A stretch of DNA of 54,928 nucleotides from Lentilactobacillus kefiri (GTDB lineage: Bacteria > Bacillota > Bacilli > Lactobacillales > Lactobacillaceae): contig NZ_BJVK01000014.1 of the NCBI RefSeq assembly GCF_007989105.1, forward strand, positions 1 to 54,928, given 5' to 3'. Position 1 is the stretch's first letter. Every line of letters starts with the position of its first letter. The notes under the pieces were generated by a model. It was not told where the DNA came from and searched no databases. It saw nothing but the letters and a program-made list of their open reading frames with translations. Shown in pieces: positions 11-48,882 of the stretch. A program made the translations under genes and the position numbers.

Positions 11-1303
11 TTAAGCTTGGTGACCGCCAAGCAGACCGGCTCTTTCAATGGCGGTCCCACCTTTAGTCTTGGATGACGCCCGGACTAAAGCTTTGTAACC
101 ATATTTTTTTCGAATAATATCAATGGTGTGTTCCAACTTTTCTCTATCAATGGTGGTTTCGGGATCTTCAAATAAGCTGAAGTGAGTTGTCCGTTTTTGG
201 GAAATTCGATTGCACCTGACGCCAACATTACGGATTGCACTGCCATCCCATTTTGTTTCCAGCAGATAATTGACGGCGTTGGTAATGCTTTGGGTCGAAT
301 CGGTGGGCTCAATATGCATTTGGGCAGAGAAATGGGTTCGACCCTGTTTGTCGATATTGGCCATTCCGATATAAATACTGACGACTTCTGCGACGACATT
401 GTTTTTACGTAGTCGGGTCGCAACTTGATCGGCAATCTCGTCAAGAACGGTTTTGAGATCTACCAATTCGGTATAATCACGCATTAAGACCTGTGAGTTG
501 CCGTAACCTTTATTATCAGACCGGGGAAGATACTTTTTTTCCAGGGTGGAATAGTCGATTCCCCAGGCATGGTAATAAAGCTGTTCACCCATAACGCCAA
601 ACTTTTGCTTTAATTTTTTGATATCGGCGTGGGCCAGTTCTTTGATCGAATAGATGCCCATATAGTTTAGTTTTGCTGCGGTGTGGCCGCCGATCCCCCA
701 CATATCGGCAAGACTTGGAATCTTCCAAATGGTTTCCGGAACGTCTTCGTAATGCCATTCCGCAATCCAAGGAGCTTTTTTCTTGGCAGCATTGTCCAGA
801 GCCAATTTAGCCAAAAGTGGATTTTGACCGATGCCGACAGTAGTGACAATTCCGGTCTCTTTAAACACTTTTGCCTGAATCATTTTGGCAATTTGGACGT
901 TGGAGCCGAATAGCTTGTGACTGTGACTGACGTCGATAAAACTTTCATCGATTGAGTAGGGGAACCAATGCTTATCATCGGTAAACTGTCGATAAATAAG
1001 ATTGATTTTGTAATTAAGCTGAACGTAATCGGCCATGTGGGGCTCGACCATCTCGATGTCCATGTCGTCATTAATTTCAAAGCGCCGAGTGCCGAGCTTG
1101 ACGCCGTAGTTCTGTTTGGTAAAGGGACTGGCAGCCAAAATAAGCCCACCGGCAGATTCTTCACGACTCATAACGGCGATTTTGGCGGAAAGGGGATGCT
1201 CACCGCGTTTAATTGCTTCGGTGGAAGCATAAAAAGACTTGCAGTCAATGCACATCACGTCGTGAACGGGTAAGATTTGTGGATTATCAAGAGGTGTTTT
1301 CAT
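11..1303 (-). CDS. umuC: Y-family translesion DNA polymerase (UmuC/UvrX-like)
   Basis: 430-residue Y-family polymerase that copies past DNA lesions during the SOS response. The catalytic acidic motifs are visible: IDCKSFYAS (D20) near the N-terminus and SIDESFID at residues 117-124 (D119, E120). A helix-hairpin-helix-like stretch follows (MWGIGGHTAAKL), then the little-finger region with the QVLMRDYT block typical of the Gram-positive UvrX/YqjW branch rather than DinB. The length fits that branch. The ATG follows AGGTGATCCTTC. The promoter carries a perfect LexA box inside its spacer, so the gene is almost certainly SOS-induced. It stands alone; the YolD-like gene that often sits beside such polymerases is 29.6 kb away. 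The C-terminus ends 10 bases inside the window. Confidence 0.95.
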   Translation of the reverse strand: MKTPLDNPQILPVHDVMCIDCKSFYASTEAIKRGEHPLSAKIAVMSREESAGGLILAASPFTKQNYGVKLGTRRFEINDDMDIEMVEPHMADYVQLNYKINLIYRQFTDDKHWFPYSIDESFIDVSHSHKLFGSNVQIAKMIQAKVFKETGIVTTVGIGQNPLLAKLALDNAAKKKAPWIAEWHYEDVPETIWKIPSLADMWGIGGHTAAKLNYMGIYSIKELAHADIKKLKQKFGVMGEQLYYHAWGIDYSTLEKKYLPRSDNKGYGNSQVLMRDYTELVDLKTVLDEIADQVATRLRKNNVVAEVVSIYIGMANIDKQGRTHFSAQMHIEPTDSTQSITNAVNYLLETKWDGSAIRNVGVRCNRISQKRTTHFSLFEDPETTIDREKLEHTIDIIRKKYGYKALVRASSKTKGGTAIERAGLLGGHQA

Positions 1304-1337: not shown

Positions 1338-1366
1338 ATAATACGAACATTTGTTCGGAGTGTCAA
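1338..1366 (-). promoter_or_regulatory. SOS promoter of umuC with perfect LexA (DinR) box
   Basis: Read on the minus strand: -35 TTGACA (1361-1366), a 17-base spacer, -10 TATTAT (1338-1343). The spacer contains CGAACATTTGTTCG or its complement at 1344-1357, a perfect CGAAC-N4-GTTCG LexA/DinR operator. LexA bound here would cover the space between the two promoter elements. Confidence 0.95.
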
Positions 1367-28125: not shown

Positions 28126-29541
28126 TTAAATATTGGATAAACGTTTGTGTGCCTGTTTGTGAATCTTTGGCGTTGAAGAGTGCTTTGTGTACAGTCTTCG
28201 GGACATAAACAGGGCGATGATCAGAAATACCAGACACATGGTAAAGCCTGCCTGGATACCCATTTGCTGATTGTGGGTGTGACCAATAAACAGGTGGCTG
28301 GTAATGTTAATGGTTGCGACAATGATGGCTGTCCCAAACGAAGCGGCAATTTGGCGCAGGGTGTTAAAAGCAGCCACTCCGTCAGCGATCATATCATTGG
28401 GTAAAAACGACAGTGCCTGAGTTTGAATTGGGATCAGAATTAATACCAAACCTAATTGACGAATTGTCTGACCAACCGTCAGCATTCCCACTGAAGCATT
28501 GACGTCAATGAACGCCTGCATCATAGTACCAAAGCAGTCAATCAAGATTCCGGTTGTGACAATAATTCGAACCGGATAACGATCAAACAGCCGACCGCTG
28601 ACTGGGGACATGAACCCGGTTAACATGGCTCCTAGAAGTAAAGCCAGACCGGAAATGATGGGACTTTGACCCATAATGGTTTGAATCAACAGGGGCAACA
28701 AAATGGTATTTCCATACATTGTGGAAACAATGAGTGAATTAACGATCGTCGCGGTTGTAAACTGAGAGTTTTTAAAAACTGCCAGGTTGACGAAGGGATG
28801 ATCGGAATCCTTTTGAGTGAAGACAAAGATTCCAATCAGTATGACACCAATGATAAATGGCAGCCAGACGGTCATTGATTCAATGGAGTACTGACTGACA
28901 TTTGAAAAGCTCCAGAGCAATCCCAATAGTCCCAAGCTGATGGTGATCAGCCCTTCAACGTTAAACGCTGGTTCCTGATTGGTTGGAACTTTTGGCAACA
29001 GGCTCATCGCCAAGATTAAGTCAACGACGATAAATGGAATGACTAGAATAAACAGGTAGCGCCATGAAAAGAAGTCCAAAATAACCCCAGACAAAGTCGG
29101 TCCAATGATTGGCGAGAAGTTAAATGCCAAGCCGACAATTCCCATCACCGCACCTTTTTTTCCTGGTTCGGCATATCGAATTGCAAGGGTATTTACCAAC
29201 GGCATCATCATGCCAGAACCAATGGCTTGGATCATTCGGGCAATAATCAAAATAAAGAAGTTTGGCGCAATGGCACCGACCACCGTTCCCAGCAGGAAGA
29301 CGCCGGTAAATGCAATAAAGAGTGAGCGAAAAGTAAACTTTTTGGTAAAGTAGGCACTTACTGGAATCATGATGGCATTCACCAACATATAGCCGTTACT
29401 GATCCATTGAACGGTAGCCGAAGGGACGTTGAACACTTTCATAAAAGTTGGCAGTGCAACGTTCATGAGAGTTGAGCAGAGGATCCCGAAGAAAGCTCCG
29501 AACACCATGATAAATAAGGCATATTTAATTTTTTTAGACAT
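28126..29541 (-). CDS. MFS multidrug transporter, DHA2 (14-helix) family
   Basis: 471 residues with about 14 helices. MFS signatures: helix 2-3 region WISNGYMLVNAIMIPVSAYFTKKF, motif A-like stretch, RMIQAIGSGMMMPLVN and antiporter motif C-like GLAFNFSPIIGPTLSGVI. It is a proton-driven exporter like LmrB/EmrB. ATG 29541 is chosen (GGAAG eight bases upstream) over a GTG at 29550. An imperfect palindrome sits just upstream. First gene of a two-gene unit with the TauE permease. Confidence 0.92.
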   Translation of the reverse strand: MSKKIKYALFIMVFGAFFGILCSTLMNVALPTFMKVFNVPSATVQWISNGYMLVNAIMIPVSAYFTKKFTFRSLFIAFTGVFLLGTVVGAIAPNFFILIIARMIQAIGSGMMMPLVNTLAIRYAEPGKKGAVMGIVGLAFNFSPIIGPTLSGVILDFFSWRYLFILVIPFIVVDLILAMSLLPKVPTNQEPAFNVEGLITISLGLLGLLWSFSNVSQYSIESMTVWLPFIIGVILIGIFVFTQKDSDHPFVNLAVFKNSQFTTATIVNSLIVSTMYGNTILLPLLIQTIMGQSPIISGLALLLGAMLTGFMSPVSGRLFDRYPVRIIVTTGILIDCFGTMMQAFIDVNASVGMLTVGQTIRQLGLVLILIPIQTQALSFLPNDMIADGVAAFNTLRQIAASFGTAIIVATINITSHLFIGHTHNQQMGIQAGFTMCLVFLIIALFMSRRLYTKHSSTPKIHKQAHKRLSNI

Positions 29542-29567
29542 GAACAGCACTTCCGATTATGTATTTT

Positions 29568-29600
29568 TTAAAATTAGCACTCTAAATAGTGTAATTTTAA
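29568..29600. promoter_or_regulatory. Imperfect palindrome upstream of the MFS gene
   Basis: TTAAAATTA-G-CACT and AGTG-T-AATTTTAA, 12-base arms with one mismatch around a six-base centre, starting 26 bases before the start codon. The left half contains TTAGCACTC but spacing and right half do not fit a CIRCE element. Probable operator for an unknown repressor. Confidence 0.5.
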
Positions 29601-29729
29601 AAAGGGTGAATTGCAATAGGTTTATAGCTGACTGGTAATCATTCATTAAGAAATAAAATGGGGATGGCCTTTCCAGAGGACGAGGAGATTATTGGCGTAA
29701 TCTTATCAGATAATTTTTGGGTACAAAAT

Positions 29730-29757
29730 GAGGCTGGAACAAAAATGTTCCAGCCTC
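29730..29757 (-). terminator. Terminator-like hairpin of the second SOS operon
   Basis: Perfect GAGGCTGGAAC / GTTCCAGCCTC with a six-base loop, followed on the minus strand by ATTTTG. Downstream of the secreted-protein gene. Confidence 0.75.
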
Positions 29758-29774
29758 TGTTCTTAATAATCTTT

Positions 29775-30221
29775 TTATGCTCGTTTAGAAACCCGATAAA
29801 AGTAGGGTGAAAATGGCGTGTCCTTGGCAATATTCCGGCCATTATAATAGATGTGTACATAACTGTGACCGACACGCTTAAATGTAAAACGGGCTACTTC
29901 TGGCAATTCGCTTATTTCATTTGTTCCAACAATCATGTAAGCATTTGAACCAACGTATTTCCATTTGGTATTCGTAATGTACCATCCGGTTGATTGAGTC
30001 AAATGAGCCCTAACGCTGGTTTTCTTTACTTGTGCAGATTCATAACTGTACCATTTCTTTATCCCAAAACGTTTACCGATATTAATTGTTTTATCTTTCC
30101 AATCACCGCGAAGTGCCGCTGGGGTTCCATGATGCCAAGTTGCAGCTTGAGTTGTTGTGGCAGCTCCCAGAAATCCCAGTGAGACAATTGTGGCTGCCAA
30201 CAGTTGGGTTCCTTTATTCAT
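29775..30221 (-). CDS. Small secreted protein in a LexA-controlled operon
   Basis: 148 residues. Signal peptide (MNKGTQLLAATIVSLGFLGA, cleavage about residue 27 after TQA). The mature protein opens with TWHHGTPAALRGDW, shared in pattern (A-WH-GTP-LRG) with the secreted protein at 48469-48882, then basic and aromatic beta-rich sequence. GGAG nine bases upstream of ATG 30221 lies next to the stop codon of the preceding gene (15-base gap), so it appears to be the third gene of the YolD-like SOS operon. Function unknown. Confidence 0.85.
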   Translation of the reverse strand: MNKGTQLLAATIVSLGFLGAATTTQAATWHHGTPAALRGDWKDKTINIGKRFGIKKWYSYESAQVKKTSVRAHLTQSTGWYITNTKWKYVGSNAYMIVGTNEISELPEVARFTFKRVGHSYVHIYYNGRNIAKDTPFSPYFYRVSKRA

Positions 30222-30236
30222 GATTGTCATCTCCAA

Positions 30237-30551
30237 TTAACTTGCCTGTTCAAATTTATGAACTAATTGAATGACCATGCTTGGCTCGCTGCCGGGAAGC
30301 GCACGATAAACCACATAATCTCCCGGAATTAAATCAACGGATTCCAGTTGGGCTGACTTGGCGACACTAAAACCGGCAACTTCATAGTAGGCGTGGCCGT
30401 CGACCTTTTCATCAGTCAAAGTGACATTTACCGAGTTGAATGGGGCCACGTCCAATGATGCTCGGCGAAGTGCCAGATACTGGTAGTTGATCAGGTCAAC
30501 CATAATTGTAATTTCGTTGTTGGTGCAGGGGACACTAATGGTTTGTTTCAA
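30237..30551 (-). CDS. Protein of unknown function, middle gene of SOS operon
   Basis: 104 residues, no signal peptide or membrane helix, mixed alpha/beta (MVDLINYQYLALRRASLDV, then YEVAGFSVA and GDYVVYRA). I do not recognise the family. It overlaps the YolD-like gene by four bases (stop and start share ATGA), so the two are translationally coupled. By position and the LexA promoter it is expected to be induced by DNA damage and to work with the YolD-like protein and the distant UmuC. Confidence 0.85.
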   Translation of the reverse strand: MKQTISVPCTNNEITIMVDLINYQYLALRRASLDVAPFNSVNVTLTDEKVDGHAYYEVAGFSVAKSAQLESVDLIPGDYVVYRALPGSEPSMVIQLVHKFEQAS

Positions 30552-30913
30552 ATTAGCTTACTTCCTTCTTTGAGTTTCGCATGGCGAATATCGTTTACAT
30601 TGATTGTAACCATCTGATCGGTTTGAAGATAGATAAAATTATCATTCGCACCAATTACAATACCACTTATATTATAAACGTTTAAGTAGCCATCATCATT
30701 TAATTGAAGCGTAATTTGTTTGGAATTTTGCCAACTGTCCTGTAAGATACGGTCGATAACTTCCGGTTCCTGTTCCGGCAGCCGATGAGTCGGGACCTCC
30801 TCGACTTTTTTGTCAGCCATATCCTGGTTGTGGTCACTTAAAAAGTAACCCAGCCACTTCATCATACCGCGGTCGTTATAAAGCCATTGATCTCGTGGAA
30901 CGTCTCGAATCAT
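30548..30913 (-). CDS. YolD-like protein
   Basis: 121 residues. N-terminal DRGMMKWLGYFLSDH corresponds to the YolD signature (DRG-KW-xxFLPEH). The C-terminal half is the expected small beta domain (QITLQLNDDGYLNVYNISG...FIYLQTDQMVTINVNDI). YolD-like proteins usually neighbour Y-family polymerases and are thought to be UmuD-like partners, but this is not proven. GGGGGTG precedes ATG 30913. The promoter has a LexA box in the same place as umuC, 29.6 kb away. Confidence 0.88.
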   Translation of the reverse strand: MIRDVPRDQWLYNDRGMMKWLGYFLSDHNQDMADKKVEEVPTHRLPEQEPEVIDRILQDSWQNSKQITLQLNDDGYLNVYNISGIVIGANDNFIYLQTDQMVTINVNDIRHAKLKEGSKLI

Positions 30914-30934
30914 GTTAAACACCCCCATACGTTT

Positions 30935-30963
30935 AATATACGAACATATGTTCTAATCGTCAA
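30935..30963 (-). promoter_or_regulatory. SOS promoter of the YolD-like operon with LexA box
   Basis: Minus strand: -35 TTGACG (30958-30963), 17-base spacer, -10 TATATT (30935-30940). The spacer contains the LexA box (CGAACATATGTTCT on the plus strand, 30941-30954; one mismatch to CGAAC-N4-GTTCG). Same architecture as the umuC promoter. Confidence 0.92.
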
Positions 30964-30978
30964 GGGGAACACGCTTGA

Positions 30979-31020
30979 AAAATAAATCCCAAAGCTGAAA
31001 TGACTGTCAGCTTTGGGATT
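30979..31020 (-). terminator. Terminator of the OYE gene
   Basis: AATCCCAAAGCTGA / TCAGCTTTGGGATT perfect stem, then TTATTTTTC on the minus strand. Confidence 0.88.
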
Positions 31021-31036
31021 AACGAATGTTACAATT

Positions 31037-32179
31037 TTAAATTCGAATTTGCTTCTCATCTGTCGAAATCGGGAAGCCCTTCTTAAACGCGGTTCGTAAG
31101 AAGTTCAGTAATGGTGGGGTGACTTTTAATTCATCGACGTCACGTAATGAGAAGGTATAACGGATGGCTTTCTCATCACCAGCCGCAACTTTTTGAACCC
31201 ACTTTGGTTCACGGATTAACTCCCGACCAATAGCAGCGAACTGAACCCCGGCGTCGATTAATTTCTCGACTTGGGCAGGGGATGCCAAGTGACCGACGAC
31301 CATTAATGGCAAATCATCAGCCAGGACTTCTTGAATCTTTTGGAAGAGCGGTTGCTTGTCGTCATGGTCAACGATTGATCCTTGCCAAGCGTCGGCTAAA
31401 GAAATGTGCAGGTAATCAATTGGCTTTTTGTTTAATTCTTTAACTAAGGCCGACGTGTCGCTCATCCTGATACCGGGTTCTTCGATTTCTTCCGGTGAAA
31501 TTCGATACCCCAAAATGAATGAAGGGTTATCAGAGTGCTTAATAACGTCTGCACAGGCATCAACGACGGCCAAGGGGAAATGCATCCGCTTCTCCAGGGA
31601 ACCGCCCCAGTCGTCAGTTCTGCGGTTGGAGTGGGGACTGAAGAATTGTTGGATCAAGTAGGTGTTGGCACCATGAAGCTCCACGCCGTCAAAGCCGGCA
31701 CTAATTGCTAATTGGGTGGCGTTGGCAAAATCTTTAATGGTTTGCTCAACTTCTTCACCAGAAAGGGCACGGGGTGTTTCGGCTCCCCAACGTTCGGGAG
31801 CAACTGCACTTGCGGACACTGTTTGGTGGCCACGAAGAACACGTGAATTGCTCATGCGACCGGCACTAAAGATCTGAAGAATTGCTTTAGTGTGGTTGAT
31901 TTTGATGGCATTGGCCAAGCGTGATAAGCCCGGCAGCATTTTTTCGTGGGCAACGCTGAGTTCACCTTCAAAGCCTTTGCCTAAATCATTCACATTGGCA
32001 CAGCCGGTGATGATCATACCGGGACCGCCAGCCCGCATGCGGAAGTAGTCGATTTCGTCATTGGTAATTGAGCCGTCTTCAAAGCTGGACATCTCGGTCA
32101 TAGGGGACATGGCAATCCGATTTTTAATTGTGACACCATTTCGTAATTTTGCTGGTTGTAAGAAATTATAGTTAGTCAT
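31037..32179 (-). CDS. NADH-dependent flavin oxidoreductase (Old Yellow Enzyme family)
   Basis: 380 residues, TIM barrel with FMN. Visible motifs: NRIAMSPMTEMSS (FMN site), GFDGVELHGANTYLIQQFFSPHSNRRTDDWGGS (substrate-site region with HGAN) and the C-terminal phosphate site VQFAAIGRELIREPKW. It reduces activated C=C bonds or related substrates, in the cytoplasm. GGAGGTTTCCC precedes ATG 32179. Single gene. The substrate is not predictable. Confidence 0.93.
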   Translation of the reverse strand: MTNYNFLQPAKLRNGVTIKNRIAMSPMTEMSSFEDGSITNDEIDYFRMRAGGPGMIITGCANVNDLGKGFEGELSVAHEKMLPGLSRLANAIKINHTKAILQIFSAGRMSNSRVLRGHQTVSASAVAPERWGAETPRALSGEEVEQTIKDFANATQLAISAGFDGVELHGANTYLIQQFFSPHSNRRTDDWGGSLEKRMHFPLAVVDACADVIKHSDNPSFILGYRISPEEIEEPGIRMSDTSALVKELNKKPIDYLHISLADAWQGSIVDHDDKQPLFQKIQEVLADDLPLMVVGHLASPAQVEKLIDAGVQFAAIGRELIREPKWVQKVAAGDEKAIRYTFSLRDVDELKVTPPLLNFLRTAFKKGFPISTDEKQIRI

Positions 32180-48468: not shown

Positions 48469-48882
48469 CTAACGATAATAAACTTTGGAGAAATGTTTTT
48501 CAGCATAATGTGGGGTAATAATGCGTTCTTTTAATTTATAATGTGTTGCTCTTAATTTAACGTAATTCCATTTGTGCGAGTACACATATTCCACACCGCG
48601 TAATAAGTAGGTATAACGTCCATAACGTTTATAACTGACTCGATTCATTGAAAATGGATCGCCCAAGCCGAAAGCTGTATACGTTCTTCGGGTCATCTGA
48701 ACGCCTTGCTTGAATTTAAAACGATATTTTCCTGATCCGGCATGCATGGTCCGATTGTAAGTTCCTCTGAGAATCTTCGGTGTGCCATAGTGCCATGAGG
48801 CTGCTTTGCTTTGTGTTTGCGAAACCGCCATGATACTAAAGGCAGAAACAAAGGTAAGTGCATATTTGGTTATTTTTTCCAT
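48469..48882 (-). CDS. Small secreted protein (WH-GTP-LRG paralog)
   Basis: 137 residues. Signal peptide (MEKITKYALTFVSAFSIMAV, cleavage after SKAA, about residue 28). The mature part opens SWHYGTPKILRGTY, the same pattern as the protein at 29775-30221, then basic Tyr/Arg-rich beta-type sequence (YKRYGRYTYLLRGVEYVY). GAAGGGACAATTACTC precedes ATG 48882. The longer open frame runs into the tmRNA gene and is not coding. Function unknown. Confidence 0.83.
   Translation of the reverse strand: MEKITKYALTFVSAFSIMAVSQTQSKAASWHYGTPKILRGTYNRTMHAGSGKYRFKFKQGVQMTRRTYTAFGLGDPFSMNRVSYKRYGRYTYLLRGVEYVYSHKWNYVKLRATHYKLKERIITPHYAEKHFSKVYYR

Follow-up and report, generated by a model that had tools for sequence, protein, structure and literature searches.

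Analysis of a 54,928-nucleotide stretch of Lentilactobacillus kefiri DNA (the window), one entire contig of a 118-contig draft genome (2.49 Mb), revealed a unit of three genes on the minus strand that is probably controlled as a whole by LexA and ends in a gene for a secreted protein. We put at roughly 0.7 the probability that these genes form a LexA-repressed operon split from an ancestral LexA–yolD–umuC operon, in which gene 1 encodes a partner of UmuC and gene 3 an exported protein.

Results

Architecture of the three-gene unit

The layout read from the letters in the original prediction was recovered throughout (Table 1): a LexA-type box, AGAACATATGTTCG, lies in the spacer of a TTGACG-17-TATATT promoter that heads a YolD-like gene, the 104-residue second gene overlaps its stop by four bases, a gene with a signal peptide follows 15 bases further on, and a 12-pair hairpin closes the unit. 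The stop codon of gene 1 (TGA at 30548) and the start codon of gene 2 (TTG at 30551) share the bases TTGA. Between the last base of the gene 2 stop codon (30237) and the gene 3 ATG at 30221 is a 15-base gap that contains GGAG; an in-frame ATG nine bases upstream is a possible alternative start of gene 3, but is placed on this GGAG. The N-terminus of gene 3, MNKGTQLLAATIVSLGFLGAATTTQA, was judged by eye to be a signal peptide and is followed by ATWHHGTPAALRG; the WHxGTP and LRG motifs come after the peptide.

Table 1 Features of the three-gene unit, the separate umuC gene and a parallel insertion in another genus (window coordinates unless a locus is named).
Feature	Position	Strand	Basis or remark
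Sigma-70 type promoter at operon start, TTGACG-17-TATATT	30935..30963	-	10 of 12 matches
LexA-type operator in promoter spacer, AGAACATATGTTCG	30941..30954	-	One mismatch to CGAACNNNNGTTCG; 17-nt spacer
Gene 1, YolD-like, 121 aa, predicted UmuD-like partner of UmuC-type polymerase	30548..30913	-	Relatives, gene context
Gene 2, 104 aa, TTG start, four-base overlap with gene 1	30237..30551	-	Open reading frame, relatives
Gene 3, 148-aa preprotein of WHxGTPxxLRG kind: signal peptide (by eye) and basic 122-residue mature protein	29775..30221	-	
Terminator-like hairpin 3' of gene 3	29730..29757	-	12 pairs, 17 bases past the stop, then ATTTTG
UmuC-type Y-family DNA polymerase, gene 1's predicted partner, at a separate locus	11..1303	-	PF00817, E 4.3e-29
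LexA-type operator in promoter spacer of umuC, CGAACAAATGTTCG	1344..1357	-	Half-sites without mismatch
DUF915 lipoprotein-like gene	L103:575-1426; L109:1928-2779	-; +	Between boxed yolD and umuC

Conservation of the promoter and the LexA-type box

By counts alone, neither the promoter nor the box is above chance. The region 29400–31200 contained 3 promoter-like sites versus 4.4 expected, and the window contained 6 sites with up to three mismatches to the box versus 2.6 expected. Across the 2.49-Mb genome, CGAACNNNNGTTCG was found with at most one mismatch at 32 places, versus about 74 expected under equal base frequencies, and its reversed form, used as a control, at 120 places; the genome-wide count was rejected as stand-alone evidence. 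What is above chance is the placement of the box in the promoter spacer together with its conservation: all 12 loci with this type of yolD carried a box that departs from CGAACNNNNGTTCG at one base at most and is located in the spacer of a similar promoter, 40–44 bases 5' of the start codon used, and several flanking positions vary. With such a box overlapping its promoter at a single mismatch, the operon would be repressed by LexA.

Box neighbourhoods were inspected in this genome for the two sites of the window and for seven other regions. Three of the latter precede genes that we take to be recA-, lexA- and rarA-like, one precedes a presumably uvrB-like gene, another lies within what we take to be a uvrC-like gene, and two further regions precede unknown genes, one of them carrying two boxes. 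At locus L078 (contig C17 of the same genome), a gene of about 100 residues (1252-1575), which faces a presumably guanylate-kinase-like gene, has two LexA-type boxes 27 bases apart upstream. At locus L072 (near 1793; C26:18792), a box with letters identical to those of the operon lies upstream of a 79-residue gene.

The YolD-like gene and its probable polymerase partner

The YolD label of gene 1 derives from its relatives and gene context, since its own score against the Pfam profile PF08863 (15.2 bits, E 0.023) fell below the cut-off of 27.5 bits and does not place it in that family. A profile of gene 1 relatives matched 162 of the 201 genomes of the bacterial family, and comparison of gene 1 with PHROGs yielded unnamed families, the best of them at E 3.4e-11, and a single weak match to a tail protein.

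Thirty-nine yolD loci were examined. At eight of the nine closest loci from other genera (L091–L099), a UmuC-like frame overlapping yolD was listed, with an overlap of 13–16 bases when counted from the first possible start and of 4 when counted from the next ATG; L095 lists no such frame. A box with one mismatch was present upstream of yolD at six of these nine loci, and no LexA-type box with up to two mismatches preceded yolD in L091–L093. On a plasmid of Lacticaseibacillus paracasei, yolD and a UmuC frame also overlap by 4 bases, and this frame is 61.5% identical to the UmuC of the window over 382 residues. Many of the remaining loci of the 39 contained a second YolD group, located behind a polymerase.

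In Lentilactobacillus the two genes are apart. The umuC gene of this type had its own box, with at most one mismatch, at all 12 loci, and no YolD motif was found in the 500 bases before umuC at any of them. Hits of E 2.5e-68 or better marked YolD of this type (the next best reached 2.3e-17), and hits of at least 77% identity marked the corresponding UmuC (the next had 45%). Both were present in the identical 12 of the 24 genomes and absent from the identical other 12, a co-occurrence whose probability by chance, ignoring kinship, is about 1 in 2.7 million. Through adjacency elsewhere and co-occurrence here, gene 1 is thus associated with a UmuC-like polymerase under a LexA-type box, and it is likely to be the UmuD-like partner of the UmuC-type polymerase. 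The original prediction overlooked this probable purpose, the polymerase gene lying about 29 kb away. We infer both the partnership and the direction of the yolD/umuC split from these comparisons. That the YolD-like gene is instead a free SOS gene and no polymerase partner appears improbable: the overlapping yolD–umuC pairs of other genera and the matching presence and absence of the two genes across the 24 genomes argue against it, although the missing linkage in Lentilactobacillus and the low Pfam score would fit such a gene.

Gene 2 in the place of umuC

Gene 2 was present in 15 of the 24 Lentilactobacillus genomes. Its profile matched 5 of 201 genomes drawn from the bacterial family, every one Lentilactobacillus, and the named loci likewise belong only to this genus (Lentilactobacillus otakiensis, sunkii, parabuchneri, parakefiri, fungorum, farraginis, kisonensis, parafarraginis and hilgardii). 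Three of the 15 genomes (G005, G007 and G016; loci L012, L013 and L018) contained gene 2 without yolD and without a LexA-type box; elsewhere it occupies the usual slot of umuC behind yolD, with the same four-base overlap. The predicted fold of gene 2 (mean pLDDT 60.9, from 10 sequences) was too weak for use, and a Foldseek comparison of the model with the PDB gave zero matches at E 0.001 or better. A scan of viral contigs returned 58 pattern matches for gene 2 and 23 for gene 3, none of which was confirmed as a relative.

Probable linkage of gene 3 to the LexA-type promoter

A search for the same gene order in relatives, proposed in the original prediction, recovered it in 8 of the 24 Lentilactobacillus genomes. 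Of the 15 genomes that contain gene 2, these 8 have a close orthologue of gene 3, with identity down to 55%, directly behind it, and the first possible start codon of gene 3 is located 6–22 bases past gene 2. A terminator separating gene 3 from the rest, which had been named as a refutation, was detected at none of the eight gene 2/gene 3 junctions by a strict scan, and the window has no promoter-like site with at least 9 of 12 matches between the two genes. In the eight genomes, the best promoter matches within 220 bases upstream of gene 3 reached 6–8 of 12 (for example GATAAT in G003 and G017), and such weak matches make SOS-independent transcription possible. The strict scan revealed a hairpin with a T run just past gene 3 in five of the eight carriers but in none of the other three, and a terminator behind gene 2 in only one of the seven genomes that have gene 2 without gene 3; these counts indicate that the scan is insensitive. 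The junction scans support read-through from the LexA promoter into gene 3, with a weak second start conceivable, so that the three genes would be co-transcribed.

Among the seven gene 2 genomes that lack gene 3, four have LexA–yolD–gene 2 (G004, G006, G008 and G014). Since gene 3 is thereby missing in 4 of the 12 genomes with this arrangement, the polymerase system has no need of it. A remnant of gene 3 behind gene 2 in the seven genomes was unsupported by tblastn. In a midpoint-rooted tree of gene 1, gene 2 and UmuC, the carriers of gene 3 did not form one clade; the carriers G003 and G017 grouped with the non-carriers G008 (support 80) and G006 (support 100). The simplest reading of this pattern would be one gain and two losses, and transfer of gene 3 between genomes is possible.

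Properties and family of gene 3

The mature proteins of all eight carriers have 121–123 residues, a pI of 9.9–10.4 and zero cysteine, and none exhibited a further strongly hydrophobic stretch beyond the signal peptide; the product would be exported. Median dN/dS values were low for genes 1, 2 and 3 (0.062, 0.058 and 0.074, respectively; 15 pairs from six genomes), with synonymous sites of gene 3 near saturation in this comparison.

No curated Pfam or NCBIfam family matched gene 3 at its cut-off, and WHxGTPxxLRG is a label coined here. At least one match to this family occurred in 22 of the 24 Lentilactobacillus genomes, and at E 1e-4 its profile matched 22 of the 201 genomes of the bacterial family, in 5 of 40 genera; many of the family matches span just the first 40–100 residues. 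Gene 3 shares the signal peptide, the WHxGTP and LRG motifs and a similar length with the WHxGTPxxLRG proteins of Lactobacillaceae. Among the members examined, however, a LexA-type promoter precedes only the group of gene 3 orthologues. The other family hits numbered 77, with some counted twice, and not one had a box of up to one mismatch near its start (about 1500 bases inspected on each side); the one box about 1 kb upstream of a single other hit is probably within another gene. The window itself contains a distant paralogue of gene 3 at 48469-48882 (minus strand), next to the tmRNA gene; no LexA-type box was detected in front of it.

The predicted fold of gene 3 was too weak for use (mean pLDDT 51.0, from 6 sequences, with residues 104–148 below 50). 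In a Foldseek comparison with the PDB, PH-like structures came first (E 0.21) and lipocalins lower down (E 0.75 or worse); none reached 0.001 and they were left unused. PADLOC returned no match.

Possible roles of gene 3

We rank the possible roles of gene 3 in falling order as passenger, wall or division factor, and antagonist. It is possible, but in our judgment well short of even odds, that gene 3 is a passenger from a plastic secreted-protein family, expressed partly or wholly from elsewhere and without a role in the damage response. The identical tight placement in eight genomes at identities down to 55%, the low dN/dS and the lack of a detectable terminator at all eight junctions argue against a passenger, whereas the four operon genomes without gene 3, the absence of SOS-type promoters from other family members and the weak promoter-like matches upstream of gene 3 are what it would predict.

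It is unlikely that gene 3 substitutes for YneA, seemingly missing from the genus, as an exported protein that is induced by SOS and blocks division or wall synthesis. Known Gram-positive SOS division inhibitors are small and act at the membrane or outside; YneA and SosA are small, exported and act at the membrane or outside. The YneA profile (NF010723) was above its curated cut-off in none of the 24 genomes, and at L075 875-1922 (contig C1 of the same genome) what we take to be a lexA-like gene stands opposite a presumably DUF896-like gene, with no yneA in between. Matches below the cut-off, however, occurred in all 24 genomes; most lay in frames at least about 200 residues long, and two in frames of 76 residues (G018 and G019), so a diverged YneA is possible and the absence of YneA is uncertain. 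Gene 3 itself had no match listed for this profile, has no LysM match and, apart from the signal peptide, no membrane anchor. An essential checkpoint would fit poorly with its patchy presence, in just 8 of the 24 genomes, and no SOS link was seen for the family members examined besides gene 3.

Least probable is that damaged cells release gene 3 as a bacteriocin or another antagonist. Although bacteriocins are commonly under SOS control and residues 1–131 matched the NCBIfam bacteriocin family BLB8/JUQZ-1 (NF053514) weakly (E 0.028), the score of 14.7 bits lies far from the cut-off of 40 and outside membership, no immunity or lysis gene was seen by eye alongside gene 3, phage and plasmid records gave zero matches, and dN/dS is low.

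A parallel case in another genus

In two genomes of another genus (G167 and G189), a gene whose lipoprotein-like product contains a DUF915 hydrolase domain (E 4.2e-78 and 4.5e-77, respectively) lies 28–29 bases behind a yolD that bears a LexA-type box. A second LexA-type box follows past this gene, and then umuC, with a short frame in between in G189. A further genome of the same genus (G144) has yolD and then polymerase sequence, with the insert missing. Together with gene 3, this case suggests that an exported protein probably joined a LexA–yolD unit more than once.

Discussion

The arrangement described here is best read as a LexA-repressed operon with an exported last product. Upon DNA damage, loss of LexA would free the operon promoter and yield one transcript of the three genes. 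The YolD-like, UmuD-like subunit would then work with the UmuC-type polymerase, made simultaneously under a separate LexA promoter at a distance of about 29 kb, and the product of gene 3, small, basic and cysteine-free, would be exported and most likely retained on or near the cell wall. Action at the wall during recovery is our guess. As to origin, an ancestral LexA–yolD–umuC operon may have been split in Lentilactobacillus, with the LexA promoter kept by both halves; gene 2, found in three other species with neither yolD nor a LexA box, would have replaced umuC with the same four-base overlap, and gene 3, from a family of small secreted proteins, would then have been placed behind gene 2.

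Earlier work describes a Gram-positive counterpart of Pol V that consists of a YolD homologue, a YqjW/UvrX-type polymerase and RecA, with YolD proposed as the UmuD counterpart; in Staphylococcus aureus, yolD and the polymerase gene are reported to be apart, to have one LexA site each and to be SOS-responsive (PMC6511836). The present case is alike in combining YolD with a UmuC-like polymerase, both with LexA sites, but differs by the two extra genes, one of them for a secreted protein, behind the split yolD.

The original prediction regarded an exported SOS output as unexpected outside bacteriocins and prophages. In this form the view is unsupported, because YneA and SosA are already known as SOS-induced membrane or exported proteins; SOS induction is described for Bacillus subtilis YneA and Staphylococcus aureus SosA (PMC13396833, PMC6851548). 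The operon of gene 3 is likewise of SOS type, but gene 3 differs from these two in having no YneA match, LysM match or membrane anchor. Each element exists singly, whether an SOS-induced protein that works outside the cytoplasm, a split yolD/umuC pair or a secreted protein of this kind. The combination of the three was not found in a limited search of titles and abstract openings, and the same search retrieved no published description of a split yolD/umuC pair with an SOS-linked secreted gene in Lentilactobacillus.

A broader proposal, which we hold to be speculative and rather unlikely, is that lactobacilli couple export at the wall with DNA damage and to this end load exported proteins into LexA–yolD translesion operons (gene 3 and, independently, the DUF915 lipoprotein hydrolase) as an SOS checkpoint or wall-repair factor replacing a missing YneA.

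Since, in several species of this genus of food lactobacilli, a gene for a secreted protein closes a probable damage-controlled operon headed by a likely accessory gene of an error-prone DNA polymerase, damaged cells may export its product. The split yolD/umuC pair is documented here in Lentilactobacillus with a LexA-type promoter at each half. The operon represents a concrete, conserved case among food bacteria in which a damage promoter should drive protein export, and it indicates where an SOS checkpoint of lactobacilli might be sought.
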